NCBI RefSeq assembly: GCF_000269985.1
Contig: NC_016109.1
Span: 682,001-746,000, forward strand
DNA length: 64,000 bases
Direction: 5' to 3'
Source of the DNA: Kitasatospora setae KM-6054
Lineage (GTDB): Bacteria > Actinomycetota > Actinomycetes > Streptomycetales > Streptomycetaceae
The first letter of the stretch is position 1; each line of letters begins with the position of its first letter. The notes beneath the pieces are model-generated. The model did not search any database, was not told the DNA's origin, and saw only the letters and a program-made list of their open reading frames with translations. The translations under genes and the position numbers were made by a program. Positions 3-45,602 of this stretch are shown here, in pieces.

Positions 3-191
3 GGCGCGGCCCGGGTGCTGCCGACCTTCCTGCTGGACGGCTTCGTCGCGGGCAGCTGGGCGGTGAAGGGCGCGGAGCTGCTGGTCACCCCGTTCCGCCC
101 GCTGCCGGCGGAGGCCGCCGAGCGGGTCGCGGCGGAGGCCGGGCGGCTGGCGGCGTTCCTCGACCCCGGGCAGCGGGTGGCGTTCGCCTGA
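3..191 (+). CDS. AlkZ-like winged-helix DNA-binding protein, C-terminal fragment
   Basis: Only the last 62 codons lie inside the window; the gene begins upstream of base 1. The visible tail reads LPTFLLDGFVAGSW and then a short helix and strand before TGA. That motif is typical of the C-terminal strand pair of the AlkZ/HTH_42 family (winged-helix proteins related to the DNA glycosylase AlkZ, which excises alkylated or crosslinked bases). Most family members in actinomycetes have no assigned substrate, so a repair role here is family knowledge, not something this fragment proves. It converges on the phosphatase gene, with only about 40 bases between the two stop codons. Confidence 0.7.
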   Translation, partial: GAARVLPTFLLDGFVAGSWAVKGAELLVTPFRPLPAEAAERVAAEAGRLAAFLDPGQRVAFA

Positions 192-36158: not shown

Positions 36159-36704
36159 TCAGCCGCGGCCGCCGGGCAGCGCCGCCCGGCCGGGCACGGC
36201 GCTCGGCAGCACGGCGTTCGGGGGCAGCGCGTTCGGGCGCGCGGCGTTCGGGTGGCGGCGCAGCCAGTACGGGTTGTCGTGCGGGAGCCCGCCGCTGACC
36301 CGGCCGTACATCCCGAGGGTGGCGAGCAGCAGCCCCATCGCGAAGCTGAACAGGACGTTCGGGACGCGGAAGGCCAACACGTTGGCCGGGCTGTCGAGCA
36401 GCGCGAGGTTGACGAAGCCGCTCAGCACGAACAGCGCCCCGACGGTGGTGGTGACGGTGGACGCCTGCCGCCCGCCGAGCAGCGCCGCGGCGAGCAGGAC
36501 GGCGGCGGTGGCGAGCGAGACGGTGCTGAGCAGTCCGTTGCCGGACAGCCCGGCGACCGGCTCGCCGCGCGTGCCGAAGTAGGGCAGGCCGTCGGCGAGG
36601 CCGAGCGCCCCGAAGGTCGCCAGCAGCAGGGCGCACAGGCCGGCGCCGAGGCGGTGGATCCGGGACAGGCGGCGGTCGGCGGACGTCCGGTCGTGGGATC
36701 GCAT
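36159..36704 (-). CDS. DUF4383 family membrane protein
   Basis: 181 residues with four membrane helices (first LGAGLCALLLATFGALGLADG). The DUF4383 pattern LSTVSLATAAVLLAAALLGGR and the late LGMYGRVSGG are present, with an Asn/Pro/Ala-rich tail. Function unknown; in actinomycetes these often occur next to stress genes. ATG 36704 has GGAGAGGAG upstream. It is divergent from the LitR-type regulator, and one of two repeated operator elements lies on its side of the gap, so it may be light-controlled. Confidence 0.85.
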   Translation of the reverse strand: MRSHDRTSADRRLSRIHRLGAGLCALLLATFGALGLADGLPYFGTRGEPVAGLSGNGLLSTVSLATAAVLLAAALLGGRQASTVTTTVGALFVLSGFVNLALLDSPANVLAFRVPNVLFSFAMGLLLATLGMYGRVSGGLPHDNPYWLRRHPNAARPNALPPNAVLPSAVPGRAALPGGRG

Positions 36705-36793
36705 GGCGGTTCTCCTCTCCGGGCGGCGGGCCCTGCCCACCGCGGCTACCCCTCCCCGATGAAAGGTTTCGCCCGTACCGCACCGGAGGCCCA

Positions 36794-36869
36794 CTCGCAG
36801 CGCTGGTGCAGCGTTTCGCGACCGCCGCCGGACACCGGCCCCTCCAAAACGCTGCAAGAACGCTGCGAG
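36794..36869. promoter_or_regulatory. Two inverted operator elements made of 11-bp iterons (LitR/CarH type)
   Basis: On the plus strand AACGCTGC begins at 36848 and again at 36859, exactly 11 bp apart. In opposite orientation GCAGCGCT (36797) and GCAGCGTT (36808) are also 11 bp apart. The two 22-bp elements match at 19 of 22 positions when one is inverted. CarH of Thermus binds tandem 11-bp repeats, one per DNA-binding domain of its B12-bound tetramer, so this is the expected operator architecture beside a CarH/LitR gene. Confidence 0.8.
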
Positions 36870-36905
36870 AAGGCGCCGGGCCACGACCGGGCGCACACTC
36901 GCGGC

Positions 36906-38033
36906 ATGCCGCGTCCCCACACGCTCCCCACGCTCACCACACCCCCCGCGCCCCCGGAAACCCGTCCGGCGAGCTCCCCCGGCCCCGACACCGCCGACGA
37001 CCCGAGCGCCGTCCCGGACCCGGCCCCCACCGATGACCCGGCCCCCGCCGACGACCCGGGGTTGCCGACCGGCGCGGTCGCGCGGCAGCTCGGGGTGTCG
37101 CCCACCACGGTGCGCTCCTGGGAGCGCCGCTACGGCATCGGCCCGAGCCGCCACGAGCCCGGGCGTCACCGGCGCTGGCACAGCGAGGACGTCTCGGTGC
37201 TGGAGACGATGTGCCGGCTGACCGCCCACGGCCTCCCGCCCGGCGAGGCGGCCCGCACCGCCCTGGCCCAGCACCCCGGCCACGCCCAGCACCCCGGCCA
37301 CGCCCCGCGGCCCGCCGACCCCCCGGAGCCGGACCGCGCCCCACGGCCGGACCGCACCCCGCCGCTCGCCGCCGCACCCCGGCCGCCCGCCCCGCGACCC
37401 GGCAGCCGGGGCCTGGCGGCGGCCGCGCTGCGGCTGGACGCCCCCGAGGTGGCCCGGCTGCTCGGCGCGGCGGTGGACGCGCTGGGCACGGTGCGGGCCT
37501 GGACCGAGGTGATGGCCCCGGCGCTGCGCGCGGCCGGGCGGCGGTGGGCGGCGGACGGGGAGCGGTACGTCGAGGTGGAGCACCTGCTCTCCTGGCAGGT
37601 GTCGAGCGTGCTGCGGGCGGTCGCGCTGCGGGCGGCGGCGGTGCCGGTGCGGCCGGGGCCGCCGCTGCTGCTGGCGGCGATGCCCGGGGAGCAGCACAGT
37701 CTGCCGCTGGAGGCGGTCGCGGCGGGGGCGGCGGAGCGCGGGTTGCCGTTCCGGATGCTGGGGGCGTCGGTCCCGGCGCGGGCGCTGTTGGACGCGCAGC
37801 GGCGGTTGGGCCCGTCGGCGGTGCTGCTCTGGTCGCAGAACGCGCAGACGGCGGACCACCGGCTGGTCCGGCTGCTGGCCGAGTCCGGCTGGGGCCACCG
37901 CGGCGCGCGCACGGCCTCCGCCGTCCTGGTGGCCGGCCCTGGCTGGGGTCCCTCCGGCCCGCCGTCGGCGGCCGCCCTGCCGCGCTCGCTGGCCGGGGCG
38001 CTCGACCTGGCGGCCCGCGCCCTCCCCCGCTGA
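36906..38033 (+). CDS. litR: LitR/CarH-like MerR regulator with B12-binding domain
   Basis: 375 residues. A Pro-rich N-terminus (1-50) precedes a MerR helix-turn-helix (TGAVARQLGVSPTTVRSWERRYGIGPSRHEPGRHRRW), a Pro-rich linker, and a C-terminal helical plus Rossmann cobalamin domain. The B12-capping motif appears as W-x10-EH (RRWAADGERYVEVEH; the usual form is W-x9-EH), and GEQHSLPLE supplies the expected lower-ligand His. Such proteins repress in the dark with adenosylcobalamin and let go in light. ATG 36906 has no clear ribosome-binding site. Repeated operators lie 37 bases upstream. Confidence 0.88.
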   Translation: MPRPHTLPTLTTPPAPPETRPASSPGPDTADDPSAVPDPAPTDDPAPADDPGLPTGAVARQLGVSPTTVRSWERRYGIGPSRHEPGRHRRWHSEDVSVLETMCRLTAHGLPPGEAARTALAQHPGHAQHPGHAPRPADPPEPDRAPRPDRTPPLAAAPRPPAPRPGSRGLAAAALRLDAPEVARLLGAAVDALGTVRAWTEVMAPALRAAGRRWAADGERYVEVEHLLSWQVSSVLRAVALRAAAVPVRPGPPLLLAAMPGEQHSLPLEAVAAGAAERGLPFRMLGASVPARALLDAQRRLGPSAVLLWSQNAQTADHRLVRLLAESGWGHRGARTASAVLVAGPGWGPSGPPSAAALPRSLAGALDLAARALPR

Positions 38034-38171
38034 AGGGCCCTCCCCGCTGAACGGCCATCCCCCGCTGAAGGGCCCGCCCCGCCGCCCGTCCGCCCGTCCG
38101 CGCCCATCCGTTGCGGTCGCGGCTCCGAACCCCGTTCGACGTCCCGACGACTGTGCGCACAGGAGGCTCCG

Positions 38172-38612
38172 ATGATCGAGGTGGTGCGGGAGCTCGCGGT
38201 CCGCCGGCCGGCCGGCGAGGTGCTGGCGTACCTGGCGGACTTCGCGCACACCGTCGAGTGGGACCCGGGCACGGTGGAGTGCGTCCCGCTCGGGGCGGGC
38301 GGGGGCCGGTGGCGGAACGTCTCGGTGTTCCGGGGGCGGCGGACGGAGCTGGTGTACGAGCGGGTGGTGCGGGAGTCGGACCGGCTGGTGTTCGTCGGGC
38401 GCAACCGGACGGTGACGGCGACGGACGAGATCGTCCTGCACCCGGGCCCGGACGGCACGGTGGTGCGCTACCGGGCGCGGCTGCGCTTCCACGGGCTGGC
38501 GCGGCTGGCGACGCCGTTCCTGCGGCGGGAGTTCGAGGGGCTGGCGGACGCGGTGGCGCGGCGGCTGCCCGAGGTGCTGGACGGGGGTCGGCGGGCCGCG
38601 GACGGAAGCTGA
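38172..38612 (+). CDS. SRPBCC-family (polyketide cyclase/START-like) protein
   Basis: 146 residues with a START-like helix-grip fold: VVRELAVRRPAGEVLAYLADFAHTVEWDPG, then strands through VRYRARLRFHGLARLATPFLRREFEGLADAVARRL. These proteins bind hydrophobic ligands. ATG 38172 follows GGAGGC. It sits between the LitR gene and the flavin oxidoreductase; similar genes accompany lipid-modification clusters, so fatty-acid binding is a reasonable guess. Confidence 0.82.
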   Translation: MIEVVRELAVRRPAGEVLAYLADFAHTVEWDPGTVECVPLGAGGGRWRNVSVFRGRRTELVYERVVRESDRLVFVGRNRTVTATDEIVLHPGPDGTVVRYRARLRFHGLARLATPFLRREFEGLADAVARRLPEVLDGGRRAADGS

Positions 38613-38711: not shown

Positions 38712-40073
38712 GTGACGACACTCGGCACGGTTTCCACCGGCGGGTCGGTCCCGTCCCCGGCGCACCGGCCGGAGCGGGAGCGGGCGGGGGCCCGGCGGGT
38801 GGCCGTGGTGGGTGCGGGGGTGGCGGGGCTGAGCGCGGCGTACGCGCTGGCGCGGGCGGGTGCGGTGGTCGAGCTGTTCGAGGCGGCGGACCGGCTGGGC
38901 GGGCACGCGCACACCCAGCGGACCACGGCGGCGGACGGCCGGGAGCTGGCGCTGGACACCGGCTTCCTGGTGCACAACACCCGCACCTACCCGGAACTGG
39001 TCAAGCTGTTCGAGGAGTTGGGCGTCCGCACGCAGGACAGCGACATGAGCATGTCGGTGTCCTGCGCGGGCTGCGGCCTGGAGTACGCGGGCGCCCGCGG
39101 CCCGGGCGGGCTGCTGGCGGCGCCGGGCAACCTGGTGCGCGGCCGGTACCTGCGGATGCTCGGCGAGGTGCCGCGCTTCCACCGGCTGGCCCGCGCCCTG
39201 CTGGCGGACCAGGGGCAGGGCGACCCTAGCCTGCGCGCGTTCCTGGACGGGCACGGCTTCTCCCCGTACTTCGTGCGGCACTTCATGACGCCGCTGGTCT
39301 CCGCGGTCTGGTCCTGCGCGCCCGACGTGGCCGGCGACTACCCGGCCCGCTACCTGTTCGCGTTCCTGTCCAACCACGGCCTGCTGAGCGTCACCGGCTC
39401 GCCGACCTGGCGCACCGTGACCGGCGGCTCCGCCACGTACGTGGCGCGGATCGCCGAGCGGGTCGCCGCCCGGTCCGGCACCGTCCACCGCGACGCGCCG
39501 GTCCGCGCGGTGCGCCGGCACCCGGACGGCGTCACCGTCACCACCGAGGACGGCCGGTCGACCCGGGCGGACGCCGTGGTGGTGGCCGTCCACGCCGACC
39601 AGGCGCTGCGGCTGCTGGCCGACCCGACCGCCGCCGAACAGGAGGTGCTCGGCGCGTTCGGCTACTCCCGCAACCCGACGGTGCTGCACCGCGACGCCTC
39701 GCTGCTGCCCCGGGCCGCCTGGGCCCGGGCCTCCTGGAACTACCGGATGCCGGGCTGCGACGCGTCCGCCGACCGGGTCCGGGTCAGCTACCACCTGAAC
39801 CGGCTGCTGCGGCTCGGCGGCGCCGAGGACTACCTGGTCACCCTGAACGAGGACGAGCAGGCCCCCGTCCCCGCCGACCTGGTGGTCTCCCGGACCGTCT
39901 ACGAGCACCCCGTCTACACCGCCCGCTCGGTCGCCGCCCAGCGCCGCCTGCCCGAACTCACCACCGCCCGCACCGCGTTCGCCGGCGCCTACCACGGCTG
40001 GGGCTTCCACGAGGACGGCTGCCGCTCCGGCCTCGCCGCCGCCGACCACCTGCTCGCGGCGGTCGCGCCGTGA
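38712..40073 (+). CDS. FAD/NAD(P)-dependent amine-oxidase-like oxidoreductase
   Basis: 453 residues. The FAD motif VAVVGAGVAGLSAAYALARAGAVVELFEAADRLGGHAHT is followed by DTGFLVHNTRTYPELVKLFEELGV and PLVSAVWS. The C-terminus FAGAYHGWGFHEDGC is the second FAD contact. This family (COG2907) regularly precedes DUF1365 and a cyclopropane-synthase-like gene. In Rhodobacter similar flavoproteins take part in making modified fatty acids. Start GTG 38712 has GGAGG upstream. Its stop overlaps the next start (GTGA), beginning a tightly coupled four-gene operon. Confidence 0.9.
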   Translation: MTTLGTVSTGGSVPSPAHRPERERAGARRVAVVGAGVAGLSAAYALARAGAVVELFEAADRLGGHAHTQRTTAADGRELALDTGFLVHNTRTYPELVKLFEELGVRTQDSDMSMSVSCAGCGLEYAGARGPGGLLAAPGNLVRGRYLRMLGEVPRFHRLARALLADQGQGDPSLRAFLDGHGFSPYFVRHFMTPLVSAVWSCAPDVAGDYPARYLFAFLSNHGLLSVTGSPTWRTVTGGSATYVARIAERVAARSGTVHRDAPVRAVRRHPDGVTVTTEDGRSTRADAVVVAVHADQALRLLADPTAAEQEVLGAFGYSRNPTVLHRDASLLPRAAWARASWNYRMPGCDASADRVRVSYHLNRLLRLGGAEDYLVTLNEDEQAPVPADLVVSRTVYEHPVYTARSVAAQRRLPELTTARTAFAGAYHGWGFHEDGCRSGLAAADHLLAAVAP

Positions 40074-40870
40074 GCCGCCCGGCCGCCCCGCTCCCGGGCC
40101 CGTGGGGCGCGGTGCTGTACGAGACCCGGACCACGCACGTCCGGGCCCAGCCGCGCCGGCTCTTCCGGCACCGCGGCTTCCTCTGGCTGGTCGACCTCGA
40201 CCGGCTGCCCGAACTCCCGCGCCCGCTCCGCCCGCTGGCCCGCTTCCTGCCCCGCGACCACACCCCTTCCGACACCGTCGCGCTCCGTGCCGACCTGGAC
40301 CGCGAACTGGCCGCGCACGGCCTGCCGCCGGCCGGCCGGGTGCTGATGCTGACCCAGGCCCGCTCGCTGGGGTACGTCTTCAACCCGCTGACGGTGTACT
40401 GGTGCCGGGACGCGGCGGGCGCGCCGCTGTGCACCGTCGCCGAGGTGCACAACACCTACGGCGGACGGCACCGCTACCTGCTGCCCCCGGACGCCGCCGG
40501 GCGGGCCGAGACCGCGAAGGCGTTCTACGTCTCGCCGTTCCTGCCGCTCGACGGCCGCTACCACCTGCTGCTGCCCGAACCCGCCCCCGACGGCGCCCGG
40601 CTGCACCTCGCCGTCCGCCTCGACCTGCCCGGCGGCCGGGCGTTCACCGCGACCGTCTCCGGCACCGGCCGCCCGGCCACCCCGGCCGCGCTGCTGCGCG
40701 CCGTCCTGCGGCACCCGTTCGCGACCTACGCGGTCAGCCTGCGGATCCGCGCCCAGGGCATCCGGCTGTGGCTGCGCGGCCTGCCCGTCCACCCCCGGCC
40801 CACGACCACGGCCCCGGCCCCTGCCGCGGCCCCTGCTGCGGCCGGCCCCGGAGGTGCCACCCGCCGATGA
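40070..40870 (+). CDS. DUF1365 family protein
   Basis: 266 residues. Family motifs: LYETRTTHVRAQPRRLFRHRGFLWLVDLDRLPEL, LMLTQARSLGYVFNPLTVYWC, VAEVHNTYGGRHRYLLP, KAFYVSPFLPLDGRYH. No enzyme activity is established; the family co-occurs with FAD oxidoreductase and fatty-acid methyltransferase genes. The last ~25 residues are Pro/Ala-rich. Start (GTG) and stop (ATGA) both overlap the neighbouring genes, so its product is probably needed in step with theirs. Confidence 0.92.
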   Translation: MSRPAAPLPGPWGAVLYETRTTHVRAQPRRLFRHRGFLWLVDLDRLPELPRPLRPLARFLPRDHTPSDTVALRADLDRELAAHGLPPAGRVLMLTQARSLGYVFNPLTVYWCRDAAGAPLCTVAEVHNTYGGRHRYLLPPDAAGRAETAKAFYVSPFLPLDGRYHLLLPEPAPDGARLHLAVRLDLPGGRAFTATVSGTGRPATPAALLRAVLRHPFATYAVSLRIRAQGIRLWLRGLPVHPRPTTTAPAPAAAPAAAGPGGATRR

Positions 40871-42204
40871 CGACCACCAGCCCGTCCCCGTCACCATCCC
40901 CGTCCCCGTCCCCGTCCTGGAGAGGCCGCCCGCCGATGACCGTCACCACCGTCCACCCGCCCGCCGTCGACCCGCTGCGCTGGCCGGACGTCGCCCGGGT
41001 GCCGCACGCCCCGCTGCGGGCCGCGGCGGCCGGGCGGCTGCTGCGGCGGGCGGCGGCGCTGCGCGGGCTGCGGATCGAACTGCCGGGCTCGCCGGACGCA
41101 CCGGGATCCCCGGACGCACAGGACGCGCCGGTGCTGCGGCTGCACCGCCCGGCGGCGTTCGCGCACCGGGTCGGGGCGGGCGGCCTGATCGGCTTCGGCG
41201 AGGCGTACCAGGCGGGCGACTGGGACAGCCCCGACCTGGCCCGGCTGCTGACCGCGCTGGCCGCCCGCCCGGAGACCCTGGTGCCGCCCGGCACCGGGTG
41301 GCTGCGCCGGCTGTACGTGCGCCGCCCGCCGGCCGCCGAGCGCCCCACCACCGCGAACGCGCCGCGCAACATCCACCGGCACTACGACCTGTCGAACGAG
41401 CTGTTCGCGCTGTTCCTCGACCCGACCATGTCGTACTCCTCGGCGGTGTTCTCCGCGCCCTCCGCCGCGACCCGCTGGGCCGACCTGGTGCCCGCCCAGC
41501 ACCGCAAGATCGATCGCCTGCTCGACCTGGCCCGGGTCGGTCCCGGAACCCGCCTGCTGGAGATCGGCACCGGCTGGGGCGAACTCGCGCTGCGCGCCGC
41601 CGCCCGCGGCGCCGAGGTGACCACGCTGACGCTCTCCGCCGAGCAGCTCGCGCTGGCCCGCCGCCGGATCGCCGACGCCGGGCAGTCCGACCGGGTCGAC
41701 GTCCGGCTGTGCGACTACCGGCAGGCCCGGGGCAGCTACGACGCGATCGTCAGCTGCGAGATGATCGAGGCGGTCGGACGCCCGTTCTGGCCCGCCTACT
41801 TCACCGCCCTGGACCGGCTGCTCGCCCCCGGCGGCCGGGTCGCCCTCCAGGCCATCACCATGCCGCACGACCGGATGCTGGCCAGCAGCGACACGTACAC
41901 CTGGATCCTCAAGTACGTCTTCCCCGGCGGCCAGATCCCCTCGCTGCGGGCGATCGCCGACACCGCCGCCGCGCACACCCGGCTGCGGGTGCACAGCGCG
42001 GACGCGTACGGGCCGCACTACGCCGAGACGCTCCGGCTGTGGCGCGAACGGTTCACCGAACGGGCCGGACAGGTCGCCGAGTTGGGCTTCGACGAGGTGT
42101 TCCGGCGGATGTGGGAGCTGTACCTCGCCTACTCGGAGGCCGGATTCCGGACCGGCTACCTGAACGTCCACCAGGTGCTGCTCGACCGGGACGGCGAGCG
42201 GTGA
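40867..42204 (+). CDS. Cyclopropane-fatty-acyl-phospholipid synthase-like SAM methyltransferase
   Basis: 445 residues. The N-terminal lipid-binding-like domain is followed by NIHRHYDLSNELFALFLDPTMSYSSAVF and the SAM site LLEIGTGWGELALRAAARGAEVTTLTLS, then YDAIVSCEMIEAVGRPFWPAYF. It methylates double bonds of membrane fatty acids (cyclopropane or methyl branch). Two starts are possible. ATG 40867 overlaps the DUF1365 stop; ATG 40936 lies 69 bases on with a near copy of the same GGAG-to-ATG leader. Between them a (CCCGTC)n-type stretch encodes Pro-Ser repeats. I give the coupled start. Confidence 0.92.
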   Translation: MTTTSPSPSPSPSPSPSWRGRPPMTVTTVHPPAVDPLRWPDVARVPHAPLRAAAAGRLLRRAAALRGLRIELPGSPDAPGSPDAQDAPVLRLHRPAAFAHRVGAGGLIGFGEAYQAGDWDSPDLARLLTALAARPETLVPPGTGWLRRLYVRRPPAAERPTTANAPRNIHRHYDLSNELFALFLDPTMSYSSAVFSAPSAATRWADLVPAQHRKIDRLLDLARVGPGTRLLEIGTGWGELALRAAARGAEVTTLTLSAEQLALARRRIADAGQSDRVDVRLCDYRQARGSYDAIVSCEMIEAVGRPFWPAYFTALDRLLAPGGRVALQAITMPHDRMLASSDTYTWILKYVFPGGQIPSLRAIADTAAAHTRLRVHSADAYGPHYAETLRLWRERFTERAGQVAELGFDEVFRRMWELYLAYSEAGFRTGYLNVHQVLLDRDGER

Positions 42205-43019
42205 ACGCCGCCGCGTTCGCGGTCGGCGCGGCGGCGGCCGCGGGCGCGGCACTCACCGTGATGCTGCTCGCCTTCGCCGTCGGGCTCCGCACCGGCCGGC
42301 ACCGGGACGTGGACACCGCCTGGGGCCTGGCGTTCACCGCCGTCGCGCTGACCGGCTGCGGGCTCTCCGCCGGGTACGGGGACGACGGGCGGCGGGCGCT
42401 GGCCACCGCGCTGGTCACCGTCTGGGGCCTGCGGCTCGCCGCGCACCTGTGGTGGCGGGCCCGCGGCCTCCCGGAAGACCCGCGCTACGCCCGGATGCTG
42501 GCCAAGGCCCCCGCCGGCCCGGCCCGCACCCGGTACGCGCTGCGGATCGTCTACCTGCTGCAGGCCGCCCTCGTCTGGTTCGTCGCCCTCCCGGTCCTGG
42601 CCGCCCAGTACCAGCCCACCCCACCCGGCCCGACCGCCTGGGCGGGCACCGCCCTCTGGGCCGTCGGCCTGTTCTTCGAAGCCGTCGGCGACGCCCAACT
42701 CGCCCGCTTCAAAGCCGACCCGGCGAACCGCGGCCGGGTCATGGACCGCGGCCTGTGGCGCTGGACCCGCCACCCCAACTACTTCGGCGACGCCTGCGTC
42801 TGGTGGGGCCTGTTCCTCCTCGCCGCCGACACCCCGGCGGGCTGGCTCTTCGTCGGCAGCCCCCTGCTGATGACCTGGCTGCTCGCCTTCGGCAGCGGAA
42901 AACCCATGCTCGAACGCCACCTCGCCACCACCGAACGCCCCGGCTGGGCCGAGTACACCGCCCGCACCAGCTCCTTCCTCCCCCTCCCGCCCCGCCGCCA
43001 CCGCGACAACGCCTCGTGA
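42201..43019 (+). CDS. DUF1295 (steroid-5-alpha-reductase-like) membrane protein
   Basis: 272 residues with about six membrane helices. The DUF1295 C-terminal signature is GLWRWTRHPNYFGDACVWWGLFLLAA with GKPMLERHL and RPGWAEYTARTSSFLP. Relatives reduce double bonds or methylate prenylcysteine. In this operon it would act on lipids at the membrane after the methyltransferase. GTG 42201 overlaps the previous stop (GTGA). Confidence 0.9.
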   Translation: MNAAAFAVGAAAAAGAALTVMLLAFAVGLRTGRHRDVDTAWGLAFTAVALTGCGLSAGYGDDGRRALATALVTVWGLRLAAHLWWRARGLPEDPRYARMLAKAPAGPARTRYALRIVYLLQAALVWFVALPVLAAQYQPTPPGPTAWAGTALWAVGLFFEAVGDAQLARFKADPANRGRVMDRGLWRWTRHPNYFGDACVWWGLFLLAADTPAGWLFVGSPLLMTWLLAFGSGKPMLERHLATTERPGWAEYTARTSSFLPLPPRRHRDNAS

Positions 43020-44051: not shown

Positions 44052-44819
44052 TCAGCCGAACGCCAGCAGTAGCACCGGCGCGCCGGTCGGGTGCGGGGAG
44101 CCGCCGGTCGGTTCGACGGTGACGCCGACGCCTGCCGCGCCGTCGAGCGGGCCGGTGAGCAGCAGGGTGCCGCTGCCGGTGGGGAGCAGGCCGGCCGGGC
44201 GCATCGTGCCGGCGTCGTCGTACCAGAGTTGGTAGGTGCGGCCGGGGCCGGGGTCGGGTAGTCCGGTGGCGAGGAAGCCGGCTCTGCCGCGGGTGGCGGA
44301 CCAGACGACGGTGCCGGTCCCGCCGCCGCCGGCGGGGGCGCTGGCGGTGTGGCTGTCCGGGGCGGTGAGGAGGGCGGTGAGGGTCTCCTGCTGGCGGGTG
44401 AGGGCGGCGGCCCGGTCGCGGGCCTGTTCGGCGTCCTGGTGCTGGCGGACGGCGACGGCACCCGCGCCGAGGGCGAGCGCGAGGCAGGCGGCGAGGGCCC
44501 AGCGGGGTGCGCGGCGGGCGGGGCGGCCGGGCGGGGCGACGGGCCGGTCGGCGACCTGCGGGGCTTCCTGGCGGACGCCGGGCAGCGCGGCCAGTACCCG
44601 GGCCTTCAGCTCCGGCGGCGGGGGTACGGCTTCGGCCGCCCCGAGCCGGGCCAGCGCGGCGGCGAATTCCGCCGTCTCCCGCGTGCAGGACGGGCAGTGG
44701 ACGAGGTGGCGTTCGAAGGCATCGTTCTCTTCGGGGTCGAGGGCGTGGGCGGCGTACGCGCCGGTGAGGGTGTGCGGGTCCGGGTGGCCGGTTCCGGTGT
44801 ACGGGTCGGTGGTGGTCAC
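44052..44819 (-). CDS. rskA: Zinc-type anti-sigma factor (RskA-like)
   Basis: 255 residues. The N-terminal anti-sigma domain has the zinc motif H-x3-C-x2-C (HLVHCPSC, about residues 34-41). A membrane helix follows (WALAACLALALGAGAVAV) and then an extracytoplasmic anti-sigma-K domain (TGTVVWSATRGRAGFLATGLPDPGPGRTYQLWY). It should hold the sigma factor encoded just upstream at the membrane until cleaved. GTG 44819 overlaps the sigma stop (GTGA). Confidence 0.9.
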   Translation of the reverse strand: MTTTDPYTGTGHPDPHTLTGAYAAHALDPEENDAFERHLVHCPSCTRETAEFAAALARLGAAEAVPPPPELKARVLAALPGVRQEAPQVADRPVAPPGRPARRAPRWALAACLALALGAGAVAVRQHQDAEQARDRAAALTRQQETLTALLTAPDSHTASAPAGGGGTGTVVWSATRGRAGFLATGLPDPGPGRTYQLWYDDAGTMRPAGLLPTGSGTLLLTGPLDGAAGVGVTVEPTGGSPHPTGAPVLLLAFG

Positions 44820-45403
44820 GCGCCCACCCCCAGGCAGTCGCGCATCCGGATCAGTCCGTCGCGCATCCGGGTCTTGACGGTGCCGAGCGGGGCGCCGAGC
44901 ACCTCGGCGACCTCGGGGTAGCTGTAGCCCCGGTAGTAGGCGAGGGTCAGCGACTCGCGCTGGAGTTCGGTGAGGGTGCGCAGGCAGCGGCGGACCTGTT
45001 CGCGCTCGAGTCGGCCTTCGACCTGCTCGGCGACCTCGTCGTAGGCGGCGCCGCCGTGCGCGGCGGTGGCGGCCCGCCGGTCGCGGTCGGCGGCGGCCTG
45101 CGCGGAGCGGACCCGGTCGACGGCGCGCCGGTGGGCGATGGTCAGCACCCAGGGCAGGACTTCGCCGCGTTCGGCCCGGTAGCGGGCGGCGGTGCGCCAC
45201 ACTTCCAGCAGGACCTCCTGGGCGACCTCCTCGGACTGCGCGGCGTCCCGGACGACCCGCCGGACCAGGCCGAACACCGGTCCGGCGACGGCGTCGTAGA
45301 GCGCGGAGAACGCGTCCTGGTCGCCGCGCACCACCCGGGCCAGCAGTTCCCGCAGGTCCGGCCCGGGCCGCCGGGGCGGGGCCAGTGAGACGACGTGGCT
45401 CAT
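44816..45403 (-). CDS. sigK: ECF sigma factor, SigK type
   Basis: 195 residues. Region 2 reads DAFSALYDAVAGPVFGLVRRVVRDAAQSEEVAQEVLLEVWRTAARY and region 4 reads LTELQRESLTLAYYRGYSYPEVAEVLGAPLGTVKTRMRDGLIRMRDCL. The pairing with an RskA-like anti-sigma supports the SigK group, which in mycobacteria answers redox change. ATG 45403 is chosen over an upstream in-frame start rich in Arg. About 200 bases upstream to the SsgA-like gene hold its promoter; no ECF box is obvious. Confidence 0.92.
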   Translation of the reverse strand: MSHVVSLAPPRRPGPDLRELLARVVRGDQDAFSALYDAVAGPVFGLVRRVVRDAAQSEEVAQEVLLEVWRTAARYRAERGEVLPWVLTIAHRRAVDRVRSAQAAADRDRRAATAAHGGAAYDEVAEQVEGRLEREQVRRCLRTLTELQRESLTLAYYRGYSYPEVAEVLGAPLGTVKTRMRDGLIRMRDCLGVGA

Positions 45404-45602
45404 CCGGTGGCCACCCCGTCCACGACGACGTTCTCGCACTCCCCGACCGGCACAACGGCCTCCCCTGCGGCGGCCGGGACTCCCGGCCGCGACGACTCGA
45501 CGACACGACTGCCCGGTCTTCGTCGCCGCCGGCCGCCCGGATTGCCCGCTCCTTCCCCAAGCCCTCCCCCGGCCCCGGTCCCCGTCCCCGGCCCCGACCC
45601 GG

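Follow-up and report, generated by a model that had tools for sequence, protein, structure and literature searches.

The window, i.e. the whole stretch of 64,000 nucleotides analysed here (C1:682001-746000 of a genome of 8.78 Mb on a single contig), carries a gene for a LitR/CarH-like regulator, a divergently oriented DUF4383 gene, a run of downstream genes beginning with an SRPBCC gene, and an ECF sigma/anti-sigma pair. Direct reading of the intergenic gap between the DUF4383 gene and litR revealed two inverted 22-bp elements, each composed of two units 11 bp apart, which are referred to as candidate LitR boxes. The features of the region are:

36159..36704, minus strand: DUF4383 gene (PF14325, 31.8 bits, cut-off 27)
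36764..36769, minus strand: -10-like AAACCT of the predicted DUF4383 promoter, at +46..51 from the box 1 start according to the fixed-distance rule described below, in a stretch kept in the related genome G030
36794..36815, minus strand: candidate LitR box 1, read from 36815 to 36794 as AACGCTGCACC AGCGCTGCGAG, facing the DUF4383 gene; kept at the same place in G030
36848..36869, plus strand: candidate LitR box 2, AACGCTGCAAG AACGCTGCGAG, facing litR; kept at the same place in G030
36894..36899, plus strand: -10-like CACACT of the predicted litR promoter, at +46..51 from the box 2 start according to the same rule, with GCACACTCG kept in G030
36906..38033, plus strand: LitR/CarH-like regulator with MerR helix-turn-helix (HTH), four-helix B12 cap and Rossmann-like domain (profile, alignment, AlphaFold model)
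38104..38130, plus strand: putative SigK/LitS-type ECF promoter CCATCC-N15-CCGAAC, located before the genes that follow
38172..38612, plus strand: SRPBCC (Polyketide_cyc2) gene (Pfam match)
38712..40073, plus strand: FAD-dependent amine-oxidase-type gene, start uncertain (Pfam match)
40070..40870, plus strand: DUF1365 gene (Pfam match)
40936..42204, plus strand: CFA/mycolic acid cyclopropane synthase-type methyltransferase (profile matches)
42201..43019, plus strand: DUF1295 gene (Pfam match)
44052..44819, minus strand: RskA-type anti-sigma factor, ends approximate (Pfam match)
44816..45439, minus strand: ECF sigma factor of the SigK subfamily (NF007228, 276.9 bits, cut-off 226)

The sigma/anti-sigma pair matches the SigK and RskA models, as expected of a SigK-RskA locus, whereas the LitR gene heading the cluster is a difference; the gene set as a whole presumably resembles that of mycobacterial SigK loci. 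Upstream of the window's own SigK gene, a LitR box was absent at up to four core mismatches.

The LitR-like protein contains a MerR-type HTH (PF13411, MerR_1, 47.9 bits, above its cut-off) with the RxWERRY recognition helix (RSWERRYG, residues 70-77) and a four-helix-bundle B12 cap domain (PF02607, B12-binding_2, 33.3 bits, cut-off 23). In the region of the adenosyl-contact motif, W214 and E225-H226 are conserved with a W-x10-EH spacing, compared with Wx9EH in the CarH motif (a distant actinobacterial relative, L087, has nine residues between W and EH), and the D/ExHx2G/P motif with the lower axial histidine is present as E262-Q-H264-S-L-P267, aligned to Thermus LitR/CarH. Across two alignments of 23 and 20 sequences, W214, E225, H226, E262 and H264 show little or no variation, with H264 invariant in both. 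The x41-SxT/V-x22-27-GG part of the classic B12 motif is not reproduced, S310 lying one residue late and being followed by Q-N, with GPGW replacing GG; the Pfam Rossmann B12-binding model gave no match to the protein at E 0.001, and the NCBIfam CarH equivalog model reached 72.4 bits (cut-off 400). Among PDB entries, a profile search returned Thermus LitR and CarH as best matches (3whp is named LitR), and a structure search with the AlphaFold model (mean pLDDT 81, pTM 0.60) likewise retrieved T. thermophilus CarH as the best PDB matches (E 1e-14) with the same overall fold. The CarH cobalamin domain aligned to the model with a TM (target) of about 0.7-0.8, and superposition on full-length CarH gave an rmsd of 14-21 Å, reflecting a different domain placement with a good match per domain. 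Judged by its sequence and predicted fold, the protein would thus belong to the LitR/CarH superfamily, with B12 use regarded as likely and no stronger, because two places deviate by one residue from the strict CarH motif and the GG is absent.

The two boxes are identical at 19 of 22 bases and are separated by 32 bp. The initial annotation had described two oppositely oriented 22-bp elements with 11-bp repeats and this degree of identity, which the direct reading confirmed, and had placed one element near each promoter, which is borne out as one box faces each of the two divergent promoters; its account of the units needs a correction, since AACGCTGC is found in three of the four units but the fourth reads AGCGCTGC. 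Searching the window with AACGCTGCNNGAACGCTGC at up to three mismatches yielded three matches (both elements and one overlapping at 36859) compared with 0.43 expected, and none of 100 shuffles reached three matches within the window. With the variable position masked, the window held two matches at up to one mismatch (shuffled-unit mean 0.05, largest 1) and two at two mismatches (mean 0.47, largest 4), and an excess of the masked core was absent from the window at three and four mismatches (6 vs 7.3 and 35 vs 74.7 shuffled).

As the initial annotation had suggested, the element was also sought in the entire genome, which encodes three LitR paralogues and three close SigK-type ECF sigma factors, one of the latter in the window. 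A 19-bp pattern with up to three mismatches gave 43 loose matches, in whose surroundings the flank and the -10 were then checked. Both at least two of three flank letters and A-n3-T at +46/47 were present at five of the 43 sites, all of which belong to the three LitR loci: both boxes of the window, one at the ECF gene of LitR no. 3, and those at the photolyase-related gene (DPRP, PF04244) and at the ECF-litR operon of LitR no. 2. A sixth box, ATCGGTGCGCAATCGATGC, with two core mismatches and a -10, lies at LitR no. 2 ahead of a 96-residue ORF (no Pfam family), which is followed by a second DUF4383 gene. Three further sites in the genome combine A-n3-T with one of three flank letters. Among them, C1:564443 (L011:4444) has a perfect two-unit core and lies apart from the LitR genes, the next gene being secreted-protein-like; it may represent a chance match or an outlying target. 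The MMPL and ECF genes of LitR locus no. 3 are separated by a DDE transposase gene (PF01609; L089:10586-11497, minus strand), unlike in G030 (L092), where the ECF gene directly follows the MMPL gene.

For the promoter geometry, 99 matches from the window, the own-genome loci, the relatives and the named loci (best 80 of 430) were reduced to 87 non-redundant sites, bearing in mind that some relative-genome and named loci share identical or near-identical sequence and that ORFs were chosen heuristically and labelled by BLAST against our own reference set. In the direction of the box (n = 87), the next gene encodes an ECF sigma factor at 38 sites, LitR at 13, DUF4383 at nine, a photolyase-related protein at three and products outside our reference set at 24. 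The opposite direction gave ECF 2, LitR 28, DUF4383 5, photolyase-related 1, FAD 1, SRPBCC 1 and other 49, the many LitR cases there arising from divergent ECF and litR genes. NmrA/epimerase- and SPW-repeat-type genes are further examples of box neighbours, and so, judged by its sequence, probably is a DUF427 gene. The -10 (AnnnT) starts at +46 in 30 and at +47 in 36 sites, with no site having both, adding up to 66 of 86, compared with zero to six sites at any other tested offset from +24 to +94. It is present at 36/38 ECF, 11/13 LitR, 9/9 DUF4383 and 2/3 photolyase-related sites; many of the remaining sites may be chance matches, because only 8/24 of them have a -10. A start codon is found at +57/58 in 31 of 86 sites, and a second peak of start-codon-like letters at +49/50 (13 and 19 of 86) is taken to be the closing T-G of the -10. 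A T at +22 (77%) and a G at +24 (66%, n = 88 sites) are -35-like and leave a spacer of 17-18 bp to the -10; in these promoters predicted from sequence, the -35-like T at +22 directly follows the second unit. In the aligned sites, the information at the position of a third unit beside the pair was not above background. Eight divergent and no convergent box pairs were found in the set examined (L072 and L099 look like one species). The window fits the fixed-distance rule with CACACT for litR and AAACCT for DUF4383, both in stretches conserved in G030, and the litR ATG lies at +58 from the box 2 start.

Conservation was assessed in 61 genomes, which were searched with the box pattern (up to one mismatch) and with the LitR protein (present if E was below 1e-20). 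Within the genus, 87 pattern matches were found in 24 LitR-bearing genomes vs 10 in 13 genomes without LitR (Mann-Whitney p 1e-5), and the reversed control pattern gave 10 matches over all 37 same-genus genomes. Outside the genus (24 genomes), an association with LitR was absent, with eight matches in nine LitR-bearing genomes and 23 in 15 without, and the claim is limited to close relatives for this reason. Among the more distant relatives L083-L088, the outlier L083 has a clear box near LitR, ATCTATGC..AACTATGC, with the -10 in place; no box near LitR was found in L084-L087, and L088 showed a poor match with no -10. Comparison of the same gap in relatives, likewise suggested at the outset, showed both boxes to be kept in G030, where a divergent pair lies at the corresponding genes with 15 bp between the boxes vs 32 here. 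A separate observation from a genome without LitR (G033, L053:1501-1530) is a run of three tandem AACGGT-type units with 11-bp spacing.

From the named loci, the best 80 of 430 were selected by LitR protein similarity alone (0.98 Mb), the closest LitR relatives among them belonging to Kitasatospora and Streptomyces. With a spacing of 11 and up to one core mismatch, 23 matches were obtained in 20 of these best 80 of 430 loci (shuffled-unit mean 0.16, largest 1), and every other core spacing from 8 to 22 gave zero to three matches. At two mismatches the core was found in 47 and not in 33 of the 80. When flank and -10 were demanded in addition, 40, 60 and 71 of the best 80 of 430 loci were positive at two, three and four mismatches, compared with control means of 0, 0.3 and 2.6 loci, the flank and -10 having been learned partly on those same 80 loci. 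Non-conservation in relatives, which the initial annotation had named as evidence against the operators, thus applies in part: the box is found in most of these named LitR loci, but a recognisable one at up to three mismatches with flank and -10 was absent in 20 of the best 80 of 430, and the box is not tied to LitR outside the genus.

In the gap that separates litR from the SRPBCC-FAD-DUF1365-CFA-DUF1295 genes there is a second motif, CCATCC-N15-CCGAAC, a putative promoter of the SigK type, which is kept in G030. The own genome contains CCATCC-N14-16-CCGAA at 16 places vs seven for the reversed control, and four copies ending GGCTCCGAA precede the SRPBCC gene, the MMPL gene by LitR no. 3 (L179), a DNA photolyase gene (L177) and a FAD amine oxidase gene (L190). 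In the best 80 of 430 named loci, the strict form gave five matches (controls 0) and the relaxed form 13, spread over 12 loci (controls 0-1); the genes that follow are of FAD oxidoreductase, SRPBCC and photolyase-, MMPL- and ECF-like type, plus a single unplaced lipoprotein-like gene. Over the 61 genomes, CCATCC-N12-15-TCCGAAC had many matches in genomes lacking LitR, and the motif alone is not LitR-specific; its placement fits a cascade from LitR via an ECF sigma factor to effector genes.

We give a probability of roughly three in four to the reading that both boxes serve the neighbouring LitR/CarH-family regulator and its two paralogues as operators, the missing association outside the genus lowering this estimate slightly. 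That the repeats serve as operators of a LitR-type regulator was already the proposal of the initial annotation, and it is strengthened by the recurrence of the box at LitR loci elsewhere and at the three here, together with the CarH fold. The box would consist of two 11-bp half-sites arranged head to tail (consensus about wwCGnTGCrnA-AACGnTGCrAnTkG) and offset by one helical turn; two LitR DNA-binding domains, likewise head to tail, presumably contact them on one DNA face. It would lie directionally at about -58 to -37, with the -35-like T-k-G at its downstream edge, the -10-like AnnnT at +46/47 and transcription starting at +57/58, which in about a third of the sites would coincide with the start codon (leaderless). 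The inverted pair of the window would serve two divergent promoters, that of litR (autoregulation, leaderless) and that of DUF4383, and at other LitR loci the box would precede litS/SigK-type ECF sigma genes, ECF-litR operons and photolyase-related genes. LitR probably binds the boxes under the control of light and adenosylcobalamin and may act here mainly as a light-dependent activator, possibly also as a dark repressor, with activation from the two-unit site via a head-to-tail LitR dimer being favoured; the induced sigma factors would then drive CCATCC-N15-CCGAAC promoters, e.g., that of the SRPBCC-FAD-DUF1365-CFA-DUF1295 genes.

Tandem 11-bp direct repeats are common to the boxes and to the CarH operators of Thermus thermophilus, Bacillus megaterium and myxobacteria, which, in the cited passages, are bound by a MerR-type B12 photoreceptor at target promoters (PMC9304148, PMC8156234). 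The likeness to CarH operators, as first proposed, holds for the tandem 11-bp period but not for unit sequence, unit number and promoter overlap. The Thermus and B. megaterium operators are described with three or four units (PMC9304148) vs two here, and some myxobacterial operators with one or two full repeats plus pseudo-repeats; a Cystobacter CarH dimer is stated to need two tandem repeats (PMC9304148). The unit here, AACGnTGC, does not correspond to the CarH unit nAnnTnnACAn/nnnnTnnACAn, the opposite strand of the upstream unit alone reading TnnGCA compared with TnnACA. Moreover, the mapped CarH operators of the cited passages overlap promoter elements and act by blocking (PMC9304148), whereas the box here abuts the -35 from upstream.

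The Streptomyces LitR-LitS cascade (S. coelicolor litR/litS), as outlined in the cited passages, leads from a LitR-type regulator to an ECF sigma gene and on to effector genes (PMC12705666, PMC5401885). Its hallmark, an ECF gene under a LitR-box promoter, was found at 38 of 87 non-redundant boxes, and a box between divergent ECF and litR genes occurs in S. albidoflavus and other named Streptomyces (start codons uncertain; best 80 of 430), whereas the boxes of the window face litR and DUF4383, with the SRPBCC-FAD-DUF1365-CFA-DUF1295 genes following. Class II LitR of Pseudomonas (PplR1/PmlR2) also has LitR-family sites at light-inducible promoters, but these are given as TGTACA-N12-TGTACA, unlike the 11-bp direct repeats here (PMC9758184, in part). 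The Streptomyces LitR-box sequence was not found among the matches listed from the open-access literature, including the passages concerned of PMC7509140; it may have been described earlier, the original S. coelicolor paper lying outside this scope. For the LitR light system of Streptomyces and related bacteria, the box is a concrete candidate operator that can be searched for; it predicts direct targets in many genomes (ECF sigma, litR, DUF4383 and photolyase-related genes), and as a compact part it is potentially usable for tuning light-inducible expression in Streptomyces.

A site directly upstream of the -35 and abutting it is a usual place for an activator. Given this fixed position and the reported light-activator role of Streptomyces LitR, the box is at least as compatible with activation as with repression in the dark. 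We tentatively propose that in actinobacteria LitR has converted the direct-repeat operator of CarH into a site for activation, and that the three paralogous modules sharing it are cross-wired into one network. The two half-sites would have been reversed in direction and shifted to a constant position immediately before the -35 of promoters that are often leaderless, where the B12 light sensor would recruit RNA polymerase in the light to the ECF sigma genes, litR and DUF4383; the fixed promoter geometry makes this a clear claim that a B12-type photoreceptor can act as an activator. The leading rival to the main reading is the classical CarH mode, in which adenosylcobalamin-LitR oligomers repress both promoters in the dark, light releases them, and the boxes are dark-repressor operators only. 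The CarH fold of the model, the tandem 11-bp repeats of known CarH operators (PMC9304148, in part) and the statement that S. coelicolor litR and litS are derepressed upon illumination (PMC5401885, in part) all argue for it. However, whether the target is an ECF, LitR, DUF4383 or photolyase-related gene, the box keeps the same distance to the promoter, upstream of the -10 and directly against the -35, and Streptomyces LitR is described in the cited passages as promoting litS transcription in the light, with repressor and activator functions (PMC12705666); we regard repression alone as doubtful.

Considerably less probable is binding by another regulator that shares its targets with LitR, although the evidence linking the box to LitR is one of association, seen within the genus and not outside it. 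The own-genome boxes with flank and -10 sit at the three LitR loci, the counts follow LitR presence among same-genus genomes, and 11-bp direct repeats are typical of the LitR/CarH regulator family. Still less credit is given to the element being part of a promoter recognised by ECF sigma factors (LitS/SigK). It is directional, stands at a fixed distance from the -10 and has an ECF gene as its commonest target, and its GAAC-like letters resemble ECF -35 boxes, but two 11-bp repeats with a -10 about 32 bp past the second AAC misfit the two-box spacing of a sigma factor, the separate SigK-like CCATCC-N15-CCGAAC occurs in similar loci without the repeats, and litR, DUF4383 and photolyase-related genes have the box upstream as well. 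On the grounds of this spacing and of the separate SigK-like motif, a sigma-factor promoter was judged unlikely. Chance repeats in GC-rich DNA, for which the short units and the missing window excess at three to four core mismatches might speak, were rejected as next to impossible in view of the low-mismatch excess over shuffled controls in the window, the preference for spacing 11 and the flank/-10 counts in the named loci, the fixed -10 distance, the divergent-only pairs, the target classes and the recurrence in independent genomes.

Some minor observations concern the genome at large. Two ECF matches with identical scores lie in opposite orientation near both chromosome ends (C1:94055 and 8688790), which suggests long terminal inverted repeats. 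Identical 62-base stretches at 944907 (L234:308) and 6504138 (L256:339) point to a repeated gene or mobile element. A link to carotenoids was also considered, and squalene/phytoene synthase-type genes were located at C1:1960768-1962518 and 7912331, away from the LitR loci.
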